This document shows positions 9,737-18,045 of a stretch of 41,940 nucleotides of DNA, piece by piece. Position 1 is the first letter of the stretch; every line of letters starts with the position of its first letter. The translations under genes and the position numbers were made by a program. The notes beneath the pieces are model-generated. The model had not been told where the DNA came from. It was given only the letters and a program-made list of their open reading frames with translations, and did not search any database. Origin of the DNA: an uncultured Clostridia bacterium. Its GTDB lineage: Bacteria; Bacillota; Clostridia; TANB77; CAG-508. The stretch lies in the NCBI GenBank assembly GCA_944391575.1, contig CALXUC010000013.1, positions 1 through 41,940 on the forward strand, given 5' to 3'.

Positions 9737-10696
9737 TTAACAGCCTGTCCACTTACAATCTAGTGAAATAATTGATGTTGGCATTCCAACAATCTGAATA
9801 TCAAATTTTAGACTGTTTTCAACATATGTAGATGCACTGTGAATTCTAAAACTAAATTGCCATCCTTCATTCATATATAGTTCAATTGTATTGTTACTTT
9901 CTGGCTTAAAATCTATATTAACGATTCTTGTTGGTAACTTAGCAATAGGAATTATAGTTTTAGGTTTTCCTTTTTTACTAGGTTTATTAAGTGTCCCTCT
10001 TAAATTATATGTTTGAATTTGAGTTATTTTTTTATTATCAATACTAATTATTTTATAAAAATCAAATTCTCCTAATAAATATTCAACTAGTTTTTTAGAT
10101 AAATCGGGATATTTATCTGCATTTCTTTTAATCTCATTTATAAAAGCATTTAATAAAGGTACATACACAGCACTTTCTTTATCTTTTAAATCACTCCACT
10201 TTAATCCTAGTTCTTTTTTCGAATTAGTAAATTCAAATATTGGTGTTATATCTTTCCAATATTCATCAGAGCATTTTATTCCATACCATCTTTCTCCAAA
10301 ATCAAGTTTAGGTCCTAATCTGCTATGCTTTACAGCAAAGTGATTATGCTTTATGCTTAAACCAATTTCCCATTTTTCTGCATTCCTTATAATTATAATA
10401 TCTCTAACATCACCAATTTCACCTTCTTGATCTTTTTGCATTTTCAATACTAAATAATCCTCACCTTTTTCTGTTATCATTGGCTCTAAATCAAAAATTG
10501 AAAATGTAGCAGCTAATGCACTTTGTCTGAATATATCTTTTGTTTCTTTGTCTATAAAATCCCAGCATTCTTTTGCTATTTCATATGTAGAACTCTTTTC
10601 TATTACTGATTTTCTAAATTTGTTTATTTCTAAATTTAAGGTTTCAATACATATATATTCATAAGCTCTACCAAATACATTACTTTTATTACTCAT
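9737..10696 (-). CDS. HaeIII-family type II restriction endonuclease
   Basis: A 319-residue protein, the usual length for R.HaeIII. It starts MSNKSNVFGRAYEYICIETL like that family and carries a PD-(D/E)xK-type core around residues 95-125 (GDVRDIIII...WEIGLSIKHNHFAVKHSRL, in two pieces). It would cleave DNA at GGCC, judged from its paired methylase. AAAAGGAGAG precedes the ATG. It is 13 bp downstream of the methylase gene in one operon, so methylase is made first. The cassette lies between two copies of a host methyltransferase 3' end. Confidence 0.9.
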   Translation of the reverse strand: MSNKSNVFGRAYEYICIETLNLEINKFRKSVIEKSSTYEIAKECWDFIDKETKDIFRQSALAATFSIFDLEPMITEKGEDYLVLKMQKDQEGEIGDVRDIIIIRNAEKWEIGLSIKHNHFAVKHSRLGPKLDFGERWYGIKCSDEYWKDITPIFEFTNSKKELGLKWSDLKDKESAVYVPLLNAFINEIKRNADKYPDLSKKLVEYLLGEFDFYKIISIDNKKITQIQTYNLRGTLNKPSKKGKPKTIIPIAKLPTRIVNIDFKPESNNTIELYMNEGWQFSFRIHSASTYVENSLKFDIQIVGMPTSIISLDCKWTGC

Positions 10697-10709
10697 AAAA
10701 TCTCTCCTT

Positions 10710-11699
10710 TTACATTAAAGCCTTTTTAATAGCACATGCAACCTCATATGCTAAATTAACAGGAACAGCATTTCCTATCATTTTATATGCATCATTAGTG
10801 TTATTATAAACAAATTTAAAAGTATCAGGAAATCCTTGGACTCTTGCTACTTCTCTTATAGTCATTCTTCTATATAAATTTTCTTTTCCTTCAACAAATC
10901 TACAATCATTTTTTCCTACTTTTATCATTTTTGGTGCTTGGGGATGAAGCTGGCATTGTCTTCCTGAAGCTTGTACAGTAAATGCTTGCTCGTCCCAACT
11001 TTTTACTCTATTACGACTCATAAAAATAGGTGAGTAACTTCCTATAAAATACTCATTATTATTTATTGCATTAGGATTACGCTGATTCTTTTCTCCAGCT
11101 GGAACTGCAGTATCTTTTAAATCCCAAATGATATCTCTTAATGTTATTTTATTATTATCATCTTCTGTTGAACCTTTTGGAAAATCAAATTTTATATTTA
11201 GGTCTTTTCTAAAACCAATATAAAAAACTCTTTTCCTTTCTTGTGCAACACCGTAATTTTTGGCATTAACTAAAGTAAGTGAAACATCATATCCACATTC
11301 TTCGAACATCTTCAGAATATTTTTAACTGCTTCAGAATGTCTATCAGCTAACATTCCGCTAACATTTTCAGCTAGGAAGAATTTTGGTTGTGCATTTTTC
11401 AAGATTCTAATATATTCATAAAAAAGTTTACCTCTATCGTCATCAATCCCTTTCAAAGAACCTGCTTCTGACCAAGATTGACAAGGTGGTCCACCAATAA
11501 TTCCATCTATATCGCTTGGAAATGCTTCTGTATCTAAATTTCTTATATCTTCTTTTAAAAGTTTAGTTTGAGGATGATTTACTTCAAAAGTTTTCCAAAT
11601 ATTTTTATCAAATTCATTAGCAACAGGAATATCAAATCCGGCCTTTTCAAAACCTAAATCTAATCCTCCACATCCACTGAATAAACTAATTATTTTCAT
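10710..11699 (-). CDS. DNA (cytosine-5) methyltransferase, M.HaeIII-like
   Basis: A 329-residue C5-methylase closely resembling M.HaeIII from end to end. Visible motifs are SAM-binding [11 protein letters not shown] (7-17), catalytic [10 protein letters not shown] with Cys73, ENV at 111-113, [12 protein letters not shown], the target-recognition region [16 protein letters not shown] and [17 protein letters not shown], and C-terminal [14 protein letters not shown]. The expected product is methylation of GGCC on both strands, protecting against the endonuclease encoded just downstream. Its start follows AAGGGGTG, and its own promoter lies at 11728-11756. Confidence 0.95.
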
Positions 11700-13597: not shown

Positions 13598-13678
13598 ATA
13601 AACAATCCTTTCTCATTAATATCTTTACTTTTATTTATAAATATAACTTTATTATATTATAATATTTTTTCAATTCTT

Positions 13679-14011
13679 TATACAACTTGTTTGCAAATAA
13701 GAATAAACTGCTGTTAAACAAACAAATTTCAGTTACTAGATAATGGTAATTTACTTAAAACGTTTGAAAATACTAGGATTAAATTGAAATCGAATGTGCA
13801 GTAAAAGAATATTAGAAATTCTTAAGCATGATTGAGGAAAGGGTTCGCGCGAGCGGAAGGGTGCCACAATCATGCTTTAGAAGTTCTATATTCTTTTACA
13901 AGCCGAGACTTTCAATTTAAGACTAGTATTTTCAAACGATTATACTTACTAGCCGTTATCCAGTAACAAATTTCACACTTCTTCTTTGCAAATCTTTTAA
14001 TATATTATCTG
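13679..14011 (-). pseudogene. Second tag relic, split by the MITE-like element
   Basis: On the minus strand 14011-13968 encodes KDLQRRSVKFV, matching KDLQKRGMKFV of the intact Tag protein. After the 236-bp insertion the similarity resumes at 13731-13679 as TAVYSYLQ, matching STIIYSYLQ. The sequence is diverged (about 70-80 percent by eye). No start, stop or zinc-site residues remain. The similarity ends at 14011, two bases before the stop codon of the STAND NTPase gene. Confidence 0.75.
13732..13967. mobile_element. 236-bp MITE-like hairpin element with target-site duplication
   Basis: Terminal inverted repeats GTTACTAGATAATGG (left) and GTTACTGGATAACGG (right, reverse complement) match at 13 of 15 positions. 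The 8-bp direct repeat AAATTTCA flanks it at 13724-13731 and 13968-13975. The element is one long imperfect hairpin: CGTTTGAAAATACTAG (13761-13776) mirrors 13923-13938, and AAGCATGATTG (13824-13834) mirrors 13867-13877, around a GC-rich 32-base loop (TTCGCGCGAGCGG). It has no ORF. It sits in a tag relic. It may be a miniature transposon, a structured RNA, or both. Confidence 0.8.
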
Positions 14012-14013
14012 CT

Positions 14014-17000
14014 TTATGCAAAAATAGTCCAGTCTTTATTTTTGCCATCTATTTTTCTAATATCAACTATTCTTTCTTTAATTCCATTTAAAGTTCCTAA
14101 TACCTTATTATTTTTAAACTTTTTCTCCAACTTTTTATAGTCATCAAATTTATATAATGCAGAACCTGTGCCATATATTACTCCTAGTAAAGCTGCATAA
14201 TATTCCCAAATATAATACCTTACATCATTATTTAGAAAAGTTTTATATGCATCTTTATATTCATATAAATATTTACTTAATTTACTGCATTTATTAATAT
14301 ACTTAAAATCTTTATACGCCGTATATACCTCTTTTTTTCTTTTTTCTACTGTATCGTAATATTCTTCATATAATCCATCTATATTACTTACTATTTCTCT
14401 TATCAACTTATACATAAGTATTACATGCGTATATGCTCCCGTACTGCCACCTGAACTTGCATATTTTTTCTCTAAGTTTTCTATACTGCTTTCTTTTTCT
14501 GACTTCATAAGTTCTTCTACATTTTTTTGTCCCCACATTTGTTTTACGTTCTCGAAGAGGTTTTCTATATCTTTGTATAAGCTTATTGCAAATATCTTAA
14601 TAATTATTTTTTCTAAAGATTTATTAGAATATTTATTATCTATAATCCACCATACAGCACCAACAATTTCGTTTTTTACTAACTCAAAATTATTGTCGAT
14701 ATCTTTAAAAAATTCATCTATACGATCCTCAAGAAATGAATAATAATATCCCCAATTATTTCTTAATTCTGATTCATTATCACGATAATATTTTAATGTC
14801 TTGTATAATAATTCATAAGCTCTATTCGTATATACTACTTTTTGTTCAAAGTTTTCTTCATATCTAACAACGCTGCTTAAAGTTACATATATTGTAACAG
14901 ATAATATTGCGTTTTCTCTTATAACTTCACTATTATTATCTATCATTAAAGTTCCATATTTGAAAACACTTTCTATAAGTTTTGTCTTATTACTTCCTTG
15001 TGATTTTTTCATTTTCTTATTAACTTCATTTGTAAGTATTTTAAATACTAATTTTGTTCTGCTATCATTATATCCATTATCTTTTATATATTTATCCATT
15101 ATCTCAGAATATATAGAAGGCATATATATTATATTTTCTTTTAATAAAAATGTCTCAGCTTCAATATATTTATCATTATCTTTTCCATATATTTCTTCAT
15201 ATCTATTTTTTAATTCAGTTAGTATTTCTATATCCTTTGTTTTTAAATCTGTATCTTCTATCTCATCAGAAAATATATTACCTAATCCACCTAAATGACC
15301 TCTTACAATATTATAAAATCCATCAATAATATCCAAATTTAAAGTCTCATTTATTATATATCGTACTGAATATACGTAATTAAGTATTACTTCTCTTTCC
15401 TCTATTTTTCTAATTCCCCAGCCCACTCTACAAATACTTTTTACCATACTAGTAGTAAGATATTCTGGTTCTTTTGATAGAATTTCTGTTGCCTCTTTTA
15501 GTTTTTTAACGTCACGAATTTCAGCTACTCCATTTGAGTCTAAAAGCGTTTTTACATACAATTTATCTTTTTCCCCAATATAATTTTCTAATAATTGATT
15601 AATCTCTTCTTTTTCTCCGCCACATAAAATTAAAGTTCTAATATAATGTATACTATTTTTGCCAAATTCCTTTTCTATTATTGTCTTTAAATTTGTATTT
15701 TCTACTTTATTTTCTGTTCTTTCTATGTATCTTTTCAAATGATACGTATTATTAGACATATTGTAATTATCTATAATATCTAAGATTTCTAAGCTTTTAT
15801 ATCCTAATAATAATTTGAATTCTAAAGTATTACTGTATTCAAATTTACTTCTTAAGTATTCTTCTATATCTTGAATTACTATTATATCATCATATTTATT
15901 CTCATACTCTTCTATTATTTTAATTATAAATTTTGCTTTATTTATAAATTCCTCTTTATTATTTGCTTTTGCAATTTCTTTTGCTTCACTAAGAATTATT
16001 GTTTTAAATTTCTTCTTAGAATTATAGTTGTCTATGTTTACTACTTTTTCTACATTTCCATCTACTTTTTTATCATTTAAAATTATTTCTTCTATTTCTT
16101 TATCTATATTAGCTTCTAATATTTTAAAATATTTATTTTTTAAATTTTCATTTGTATTAGCTATAATTATATCTTTAAAAGAAGTATTTATTGAATATTC
16201 TTCTCCTTCTTTTTGTATAAACGAAAATCCTTTCACTTTTTCATATAGAGAATAAGAAAAATTGCCAAGTATTTCTTTTGATATTTTTTCTATATTATCA
16301 TCTGTCCAATTAGAAAGAAATGCAAGCATTGTTACAAAATCTTTTTCTGCATCATCCATATACACTAAATATCTTTTTTGAAGTTCTGTTGTGTTCTTTC
16401 CAAAATCAGCGATTGTTGGTACTTTATTTTGATTTACTAAAGATGTAAATGTATCTACACAAATATCTAAATATTTTGGTGCACCATGTGTTAAATCATA
16501 TATCTCATCTATTAAATTTTGATCTTTTATACCTGCTTTTTCTAGAAAATATTTTGTATCTGCTAGTGACAAATTACCTAATAAATGTTGGTCTATTGAA
16601 CCCTTCCATTCTTTATCGTGTTCTTCCCACTTTAATTTTTCCCTGCCTGCAATTACCCATATTGTATTAGGTACATTTAATATTAGTCCATTTTCCCCTC
16701 TTAAAAATAAATCTTTTTCTAATGCATTTCTATTTTCCAATTCATTAACTAATTTTTCGTACGTATCTATAAAAAATACAAATGGGAGTTCTAATTTTTC
16801 TACGTTATCTTTTAAATCTATTGCAAAATAATATGGTAGATTTTCATATATATCTGCAGGTTCCATATTATCTATATTTCCTAACTTACTTTTTAATTTA
16901 TTACTTTCGATCCTGTTTTGTAGCAAATTTTTTGCCTTTTCTGAAAGACATATTACTTTAGAGATAGTGCCTATTAATGGTATTTCGCTTATTACATCTG

Positions 17001-17433
17001 TTAAAAAAGAAAGTTCTTCATTTTCATCAAAAATACTAGATAGCTCCGGTTTAGTTGCATTTTTCCCCATTTTTACTTCATACGTATATGAAACTAAATC
17101 GAAAAGAGGAAAAGAGAATTTATATTTACCTTTTAAATTACCTTCTACATATCTTAAAATTTCTAAAATGTCATTATTATAATTATTTAACTTATCAAAA
17201 TCGACAAATGCATATCTTGTTTCACTATTTTTTTCTTTTAACTCTGACAATAATTTTCTTAATAATGTTGATTTTCCTATACCGCCCATACCATAATAAG
17301 TAATTACATCTATTTTATCACTTTGCTTTTCTTCGTATGTTTTCCAAAATACTTTTCTAGGTTCTACTCTATCAGTAAATTCTTTTATTGCCTTCCATTC
17401 ATTCTCATTATTATTATTTACAAATTTTGACAT
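14014..17433 (-). CDS. Large STAND-type P-loop NTPase with helical-repeat C-terminus
   Basis: A 1139-residue protein. The NTPase part has a Walker A YYGMGGIGKST (46-56), a Walker B PFVFFIDT (217-224, Asp223), a sensor-like WVIAGREK (259-266) and a GNLSLADTKYFLEKAG segment (from 286) typical of the lid and winged-helix region of AP-ATPase/NACHT-type switches. After ~residue 430 it consists of long charged helices, probably TPR-like or other alpha-solenoid sensor repeats. No separate effector domain is evident. Single-gene STAND NTPases of this build are often antiphage sensors or regulators. The start follows AAAGGAG. Tag sequences lie on both sides, which suggests an inserted cassette. Confidence 0.8.
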   Translation of the reverse strand: MSKFVNNNNENEWKAIKEFTDRVEPRKVFWKTYEEKQSDKIDVITYYGMGGIGKSTLLRKLLSELKEKNSETRYAFVDFDKLNNYNNDILEILRYVEGNLKGKYKFSFPLFDLVSYTYEVKMGKNATKPELSSIFDENEELSFLTDVISEIPLIGTISKVICLSEKAKNLLQNRIESNKLKSKLGNIDNMEPADIYENLPYYFAIDLKDNVEKLELPFVFFIDTYEKLVNELENRNALEKDLFLRGENGLILNVPNTIWVIAGREKLKWEEHDKEWKGSIDQHLLGNLSLADTKYFLEKAGIKDQNLIDEIYDLTHGAPKYLDICVDTFTSLVNQNKVPTIADFGKNTTELQKRYLVYMDDAEKDFVTMLAFLSNWTDDNIEKISKEILGNFSYSLYEKVKGFSFIQKEGEEYSINTSFKDIIIANTNENLKNKYFKILEANIDKEIEEIILNDKKVDGNVEKVVNIDNYNSKKKFKTIILSEAKEIAKANNKEEFINKAKFIIKIIEEYENKYDDIIVIQDIEEYLRSKFEYSNTLEFKLLLGYKSLEILDIIDNYNMSNNTYHLKRYIERTENKVENTNLKTIIEKEFGKNSIHYIRTLILCGGEKEEINQLLENYIGEKDKLYVKTLLDSNGVAEIRDVKKLKEATEILSKEPEYLTTSMVKSICRVGWGIRKIEEREVILNYVYSVRYIINETLNLDIIDGFYNIVRGHLGGLGNIFSDEIEDTDLKTKDIEILTELKNRYEEIYGKDNDKYIEAETFLLKENIIYMPSIYSEIMDKYIKDNGYNDSRTKLVFKILTNEVNKKMKKSQGSNKTKLIESVFKYGTLMIDNNSEVIRENAILSVTIYVTLSSVVRYEENFEQKVVYTNRAYELLYKTLKYYRDNESELRNNWGYYYSFLEDRIDEFFKDIDNNFELVKNEIVGAVWWIIDNKYSNKSLEKIIIKIFAISLYKDIENLFENVKQMWGQKNVEELMKSEKESSIENLEKKYASSGGSTGAYTHVILMYKLIREIVSNIDGLYEEYYDTVEKRKKEVYTAYKDFKYINKCSKLSKYLYEYKDAYKTFLNNDVRYYIWEYYAALLGVIYGTGSALYKFDDYKKLEKKFKNNKVLGTLNGIKERIVDIRKIDGKNKDWTIFA

Positions 17434-17460: not shown

Positions 17461-18045
17461 TTATTTCCTTGGCACATACAAAAAGCACCCTTCATCATGC
17501 GAACATATTATACCTATAGCTTGCAAATACGAATAAATTATTGTTGAGCCTACAAATTTCATACCTCTTTTTTGTAAATCTTTTGATATATTATCTGACA
17601 ATTCTGAAGTTGTTCTACCTATTTCATAAACTGTTTCATCATTAGTAAAATTTTTTAAATAATTATAAAACGAACCATATTCTTTTTCTATTTCTTTGAA
17701 AATTCTACTATTATTTATAGCAGCTTTTATTTTCAATTTATTTCTTATAATTTTTTCATTTTTTAATAATTCCTCTATTTTTTTATCATCATAATTACAA
17801 ATTTTATTTATATCAAAATTGTCAAATGCCTTTCTAAAATTTTCTCTTTTATTTAATACACATTCCCAAGAAAGTCCCGCTTGAAAAGATTCTAATATTA
17901 ACATTTCATAAAGATACTGTTCATCTAGGTTTAATTTGCACCATTCTTCATCATGATATTTTACGTATAATTCATTTTTTAAATTACACCATTTACACCT
18001 ATTTTTTACTATATTTTCTTTTTCTGACATATTCTCCACACTCAT
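17461..18045 (-). CDS. tag: DNA-3-methyladenine glycosylase I
   Basis: A 194-residue base-excision repair enzyme removing 3-methyladenine. The zinc-site ligands are visible: Cys in NRCKWC (C17) and His in KYHDEEW (H31) near the N-terminus, and SHDEGCF near the C-terminus. Core motifs are LILESFQAGLSWECVLNKRENFRKAF and KFVGSTIIYSYLQAIG (each shown here as one block of the family). The start at 18045 is preceded by GGAGAGC somewhat far upstream; an ATG five codons in is the alternative. It begins one base after the stop of the GNAT relic and lies 27 bp upstream of the STAND gene. Confidence 0.93.
   Translation of the reverse strand: MSVENMSEKENIVKNRCKWCNLKNELYVKYHDEEWCKLNLDEQYLYEMLILESFQAGLSWECVLNKRENFRKAFDNFDINKICNYDDKKIEELLKNEKIIRNKLKIKAAINNSRIFKEIEKEYGSFYNYLKNFTNDETVYEIGRTTSELSDNISKDLQKRGMKFVGSTIIYSYLQAIGIICSHDEGCFLYVPRK

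Follow-up and report, generated by a model that had tools for sequence, protein, structure and literature searches.

Elements of the IS66 family have ends that begin with GTAA, and bacterial palindromic repeats include REP/BIME with RAYT, RUP, BOX and Correia. Bacterial MITEs are usually defined by their ends, the middle being treated as junk. One example, MITEPsy1, is 100 nt long with an 18-nt terminal inverted repeat (TIR) and a 4-nt target site duplication (TSD), and is thought to be derived from ISPsy2 (PMC3189936).

The 236-bp element analyzed here lies in a window of 41,940 nucleotides (the whole stretch of DNA that was analyzed) from an uncultured Clostridia bacterium. Like bacterial MITEs such as MITEPsy1, it is short and non-coding, is bounded by TIRs and a TSD, and has ends common to a transposase-bearing element; unlike them, it has a middle that is kept across genera as well as its ends and is common to elements with different ends, so that here the conserved part is the middle. 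It resembles the IS66 family (NF033517, PF03050) in its 8-bp TSD, in conserved TIRs starting with G and in the IS66-family transposase of a related complete element (L279), whereas it differs in that it encodes nothing and that its ends read GTTAC-R-GATAATGG. By description, not by sequence, it can be likened to REP/BIME, RUP, BOX and Correia, all intergenic, multi-copy, hairpin-forming and lineage-restricted; unlike REP/RAYT, however, it comes from a genome in which a Y1/RAYT match is absent, and its core, with two conserved internal loops, is several times the length of a REP. Covarying helices and conserved loops are features that it has in common with the structured RNAs of Rfam 15, although it matches no family there. 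We consider it probable that this is a non-autonomous, IS66-ended element inserted in a fragment of the tag gene, the interior of which is a separate folded module, likely an RNA cargo.

Element borders and insertion site

The first-pass annotation had placed a MITE-like element with terminal inverted repeats and an 8-bp duplication at 13732-13967, and on re-examination the repeats were present and the coordinates and the duplication were exact. The element and its target comprise the following features (window coordinates):

13732..13967, + strand (the strand on which the core is read): the whole IS66-type MITE, 236 bp, recognized by its TIRs, its TSD and about 29 related places in its own genome
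13724..13731, no strand: left 8-bp target duplication, AAATTTCA
13968..13975, no strand: right 8-bp target duplication, AAATTTCA
13732..13761, + strand: left end, 30 bp, of which the first 15 bp are the TIR; 28/30 identical to the left end of the complete IS in L279
13732-13746: left TIR, GTTACTAGATAATGG
13953..13967, - strand: right TIR, GTTACTGGATAACGG, read on the complement of these positions
17508..17597, no strand: paralogue of the insertion site without the element, formed by the 3' end of tag and containing a single AAATTTCA at 17554-17561

The two 15-bp TIRs have 2 mismatches to one another, and each is 1 mismatch from the IS end. The ORF ending at 17508-17597 matches methyladenine glycosylase (tag; PF03352, E = 3e-67), and the insertion site is a second copy of this tag end, interrupted by the element: when the two flanks are joined with one AAATTTCA, they align gaplessly with 17508-17597 at 72/90 identical positions. 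The earlier claim that tag-derived sequence is broken exactly at the element borders is thus borne out by a gapless paralogue. A Pfam scan of the neighbouring ORFs identified a lactate/malate dehydrogenase gene downstream of the interrupted tag fragment; among the seven ORFs scanned there was no transposase, as had been stated, and no ORF of at least 80 aa was found within the 236 bp. The element inserted in the tag-gene fragment upstream of the dehydrogenase gene, with duplication of 8 bp of the target.

Other features of the window are recorded here for completeness. A 1139-aa protein encoded at 14014-17433 shows a weak match to NB-ARC/STAND-type NTPases; its gene is placed between the tag gene and the duplicated tag 3' end (13678-14011, 17508-17597), an arrangement that looks as if the gene had inserted at the end of tag. 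At 9737-11699, a HaeIII-type restriction endonuclease (PF09556, E = 1e-133) adjoins a C5 cytosine methylase.

IS66-family relatives and further copies

The assembly of the same genome (G000) holds only the ends of an IS, the body of which is not assembled. Contigs C17, C38, C42 and C43 end 74-76 bases inside a sequence starting GTTACTGGATAATGGTTTTTAATAAAAAAA (the same 30-bp end); one inner IS end, which carries a terminator-like hairpin, is found in two of these broken contigs and the other inner end in the remaining two, and the flanks of C43 and C38 together give an 8-bp TSD, TAATATTT. This pattern is suggestive of the remnant of a collapsed multi-copy IS. Candidates for complete copies were sought by a pattern search across the order, and the full-length transposon with these termini that the first-pass annotation had recommended looking for was found in L279, from a genome of another family of the same order. 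Positions 1191-3113 of L279 comprise a complete IS of 1,923 bp with GTTACTAGATAATGG ends and the TSD ATTTTTAT on both sides, the left 30 nt being those that are 28/30 identical to the MITE. This IS encodes an IS66-family transposase (NF033517, E = 2e-29 and 3e-16; PF03050, E = 2e-9), scoring below the NCBI full-length cut-off at least partly because the match is split over two frames. At L279 1581-1591, the transposase is read in two overlapping frames, for which a frameshift, an assembly error and decay are all possible. Further remnants of IS66 transposases with these ends are present in L273, L274, L280 and L281.

Because an IS was found that has the same ends, is flanked by an 8-bp duplication and carries a transposase of the IS66 family, the element is an IS66-type MITE, that is, a non-autonomous member of the IS66 group, with an 8-bp TSD and ends common to an element carrying an IS66 transposase. 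Judging from the shared ends and the TSD length, an IS66-family transposase from an IS with the same ends would mobilize it in trans. Other candidate partners were rejected: IS256 (PF00872) has matches in the genomes G000, G172 and G027, yet GTTAC ends are absent nearby; IS1595 (PF12762) is absent from the 13 genomes searched; and RAYT/Y1 (PF01797), as the moving agent, has 0 matches in G000.

Further copies with the same ends and 8-bp duplications had been proposed as a check on the MITE reading, and a single copy as an argument against it. In a BLAST search of its own genome, the element had 45 matches, spread over about 29 distinct places; besides the query, three of the copies are nearly full-length (93-98% identity), and several full-length copies have TSDs of their own. 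Exact or near-exact duplications of 8-9 bp flank L009 (GAAAAAAT), L010 (AATTCTTA), L013 (ATAAAATG) and L018 (AAAATTTAT), and L003 is flanked by a 7-bp duplication; L009, at 117 bp, is without the core and retains both ends and the duplication. The MITE reading is supported by the TIRs, a TSD together with an empty-site paralogue, multiple copies, several of them with 8-bp TSDs, the lack of an internal transposase, and a full-length IS66-family relative. In L002 (1501-1723; G000:C23:25749-25971), an exact direct repeat of 10 bp, GAGGAGAGCC, surrounds a core copy of 98% identity in which the outermost bases have been lost at either end.

Structure and conservation of the hairpin core

Folded as RNA, the whole element has a minimum free energy of -97.3 kcal/mol, compared to -41.9 +/- 4.0 for shuffles (z = -13.7), in agreement with the long imperfect hairpin of the first-pass annotation, whose loop sequence TTCGCGCGAGCGG is found at 13844-13856. 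The interior hairpin is present in twenty copies in the same genome, with a core of ~145 nt:

13778..13921, + strand: conserved hairpin core (model R1, positions 1-147)
13791..13801, + strand: lower internal loop, 5' side, CGAATGTGCAG, from the alignment
13899..13907, + strand: lower internal loop, 3' side, CAAGCCGAG, in which a tandem GA faces GA, from the alignment
13838..13843, + strand: upper 6x6 internal loop, 5' side, AAAGGG (consensus AAANNG)
13858..13863, + strand: upper 6x6 internal loop, 3' side, AGGGTG
13844..13857, + strand: apical stem-loop TTCGC-GCGA-GCGGA, which differs among copies in both sequence and length

The apical stem-loop takes three forms in this genome, which differ in length and sequence, with pairing kept in each. 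When 19 copies from the same genome were analyzed with RNAalifold, both-side changes were observed at 15/39 pairs. Among 75 distinct sequences, which include relatives found with a model built from the own-genome copies and hence lean towards the structure of that model, 92.6% of cells pair and both-side changes occur at 34/39 pairs; the covariation score is 0.450, compared to 0.140 for shuffled alignments (reached in 0/500 shuffles) and 0.05-0.07 for slid partners. The upper loop, AAANNG/AGGGTG, shows almost no variation, with at most 2 standard pairs possible in 73/75 rows, a conservation that in L105-L184 is partly due to selection by the pattern or model derived from the own genome; in the 25 rows found by the model and not by the loop pattern, at most 3 standard pairs are possible in all. 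The lower loop retains GAATG facing CCGA.

That the element could also be a structured RNA had been raised in the first-pass annotation, along with covariation as the means of checking it. Compensatory changes in pairs and mismatched loops kept across many genera now add to that proposal, whereas an RNA role as such is a prediction from sequence. Conservation of both the shape and the unpaired bases of the interior hairpin across genera suggests a working RNA or a folded-DNA module. The core would act in single-stranded, folded form, probably as RNA, and a host or element factor might bind it through the purine-rich loops.

Distribution, shells and alternative explanations

Genomes of relatives were searched with a covariance model of the core. 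It was detected in 58/195 genomes of the family, representing 19/39 genera and often in many copies, and in 130/385 genomes of the order, 1 of these 130 not being a member of the family; of 291 sampled across the class, only five contained it, all from the same family. In named genomes, the exact upper-loop pattern matched at least 114 stretches, and these genomes are without exception metagenome assemblies of uncultured Clostridia, Clostridiales, Clostridium or Eubacteriales, many bearing animal-gut isolate names. No match to the core patterns, the upper loop included, was found in IMG/VR, where three TIR matches, inside phage genes, were attributed to chance, and blastn against plasmids and phages gave no convincing match. 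At permissive thresholds, Rfam 15 yielded no family match at the gathering score, the sub-gathering matches being two miRNA models and the Enterococcus sRNA RefA9.

The outer arms differ among core copies, which are enclosed in several different palindromic shells. In a census of TIRs and TSDs with shuffled flanks, GTTAC...GTAAC ends with a TSD of at least 7 bp were found in 11/119 distinct copies (0-1 in 20 shuffles), a recognizable TSD thus being limited to 11/119 of the relatives' copies and IS66-type mobility being shown for some only. Among these 11 copies, two types of end are represented: GTTACYRGATAATGG and a GTTACARTTCRC-like one. In L021-L023, from the same genome, the core lies within arms (TTGRTATATAGCTATTT) that elsewhere enclose an unrelated body, repeat B. 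Conversely, GTTAC-end elements that have duplications and are coreless occur in L009, L065, L108, L127 and L189, and the core is therefore dispensable for transposition. Since ends can be present where the core is missing and vice versa, the MITE and structured-RNA readings are separable, a point absent from the first-pass annotation. The ~145-nt core, with its two conserved internal loops, would ride as cargo within different palindromic shells. In L116, L110, L143 and L176, the core is found inside near-perfect outer palindromes with 80-160 nt per arm and no recognizable TIR or TSD.

The main rival is a plain decaying MITE, in which the hairpin is a mere palindrome, template switching copies arm onto arm, and the fold has no function. 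Template switching can create or maintain hairpins along with multi-base compensatory changes (PMC8794818), so that the covariation could be partly mutational, and the arms are long and AT-rich. However, correction of one arm by the other should erase mismatched loops, whereas the 6x6 AAANNG/AGGGTG loop stays near invariant; moreover, conservation across genera is seen in the interior and not in the outer arms, opposite to what an ordinary MITE shows. Template switching is insufficient because the mismatched loops remain invariant, and we regard this explanation as unlikely, if quite conceivable. It is improbable that the core is instead a functional folded ssDNA, such as a hairpin recognized at replication by a nuclease or an unknown transposase and moving by itself into palindromes. 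Inverted-repeat-replacing insertion by IS1272 (PMC5678879) offers a precedent, the core is present in several shells with different termini, and the hairpin folds on both strands; nevertheless, the usual hairpin-DNA transposase (Y1/HUH, PF01797) has 0 matches in the same genome despite about 20 core copies, and the loops, rich in purines and with GA dinucleotides opposite one another, appear to resemble RNA motifs more. On these two grounds, the loops and the lack of a Y1 transposase in the own genome, RNA is likelier than DNA.

Acquisition, at many genes, of a leader, attenuator or terminator acting in cis would fit the placement of the core, which overlaps an ORF in 1/120 copies and is otherwise intergenic, with the nearest ORFs at a median of about 80-115 bp. 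This explanation is disfavoured because core copies show no clear direction relative to genes (same strand as the core for 50/114 upstream and 47/114 downstream genes, without a clear bias); a U-tract is also absent directly 3' of the hairpin, and we consider such a role very improbable. A chance fold of AT-rich intergenic DNA has a negligible probability and is already refuted by the z-score of -13.7, the many copies with TSDs and the empty site.

A more far-reaching reading, to which we give slightly less than even odds, is that structured RNA of a new class, or folded ssDNA, spreads as the cargo of several unrelated MITE shells, those of the IS66 type among them, in one family of uncultured gut Clostridia, the structured interior being constrained more than the transposon ends. 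It becomes directly testable whether MITEs of bacteria serve to spread functional RNAs or folded DNA and whether these are used by the host. For a large family of uncultured gut bacteria, the analysis also provides a repeat that can serve as a marker, together with its IS66 partner.

Repeat B is a second palindromic repeat family in the same genome, with arms AGCTTGRTATATAGCTATTT and body GCAAGTCAAGACCCGGATTGTGTCACCCTAGCTATGTTTTGACTAA, present at about 16 places among the stretches examined (L028, L020, L006, L008, L049, L026 and others). At L028 (about 902-990), it has a 9-bp direct repeat, TTAAATAAA, on its flanks, and its arms are common to the core copies L021-L023.
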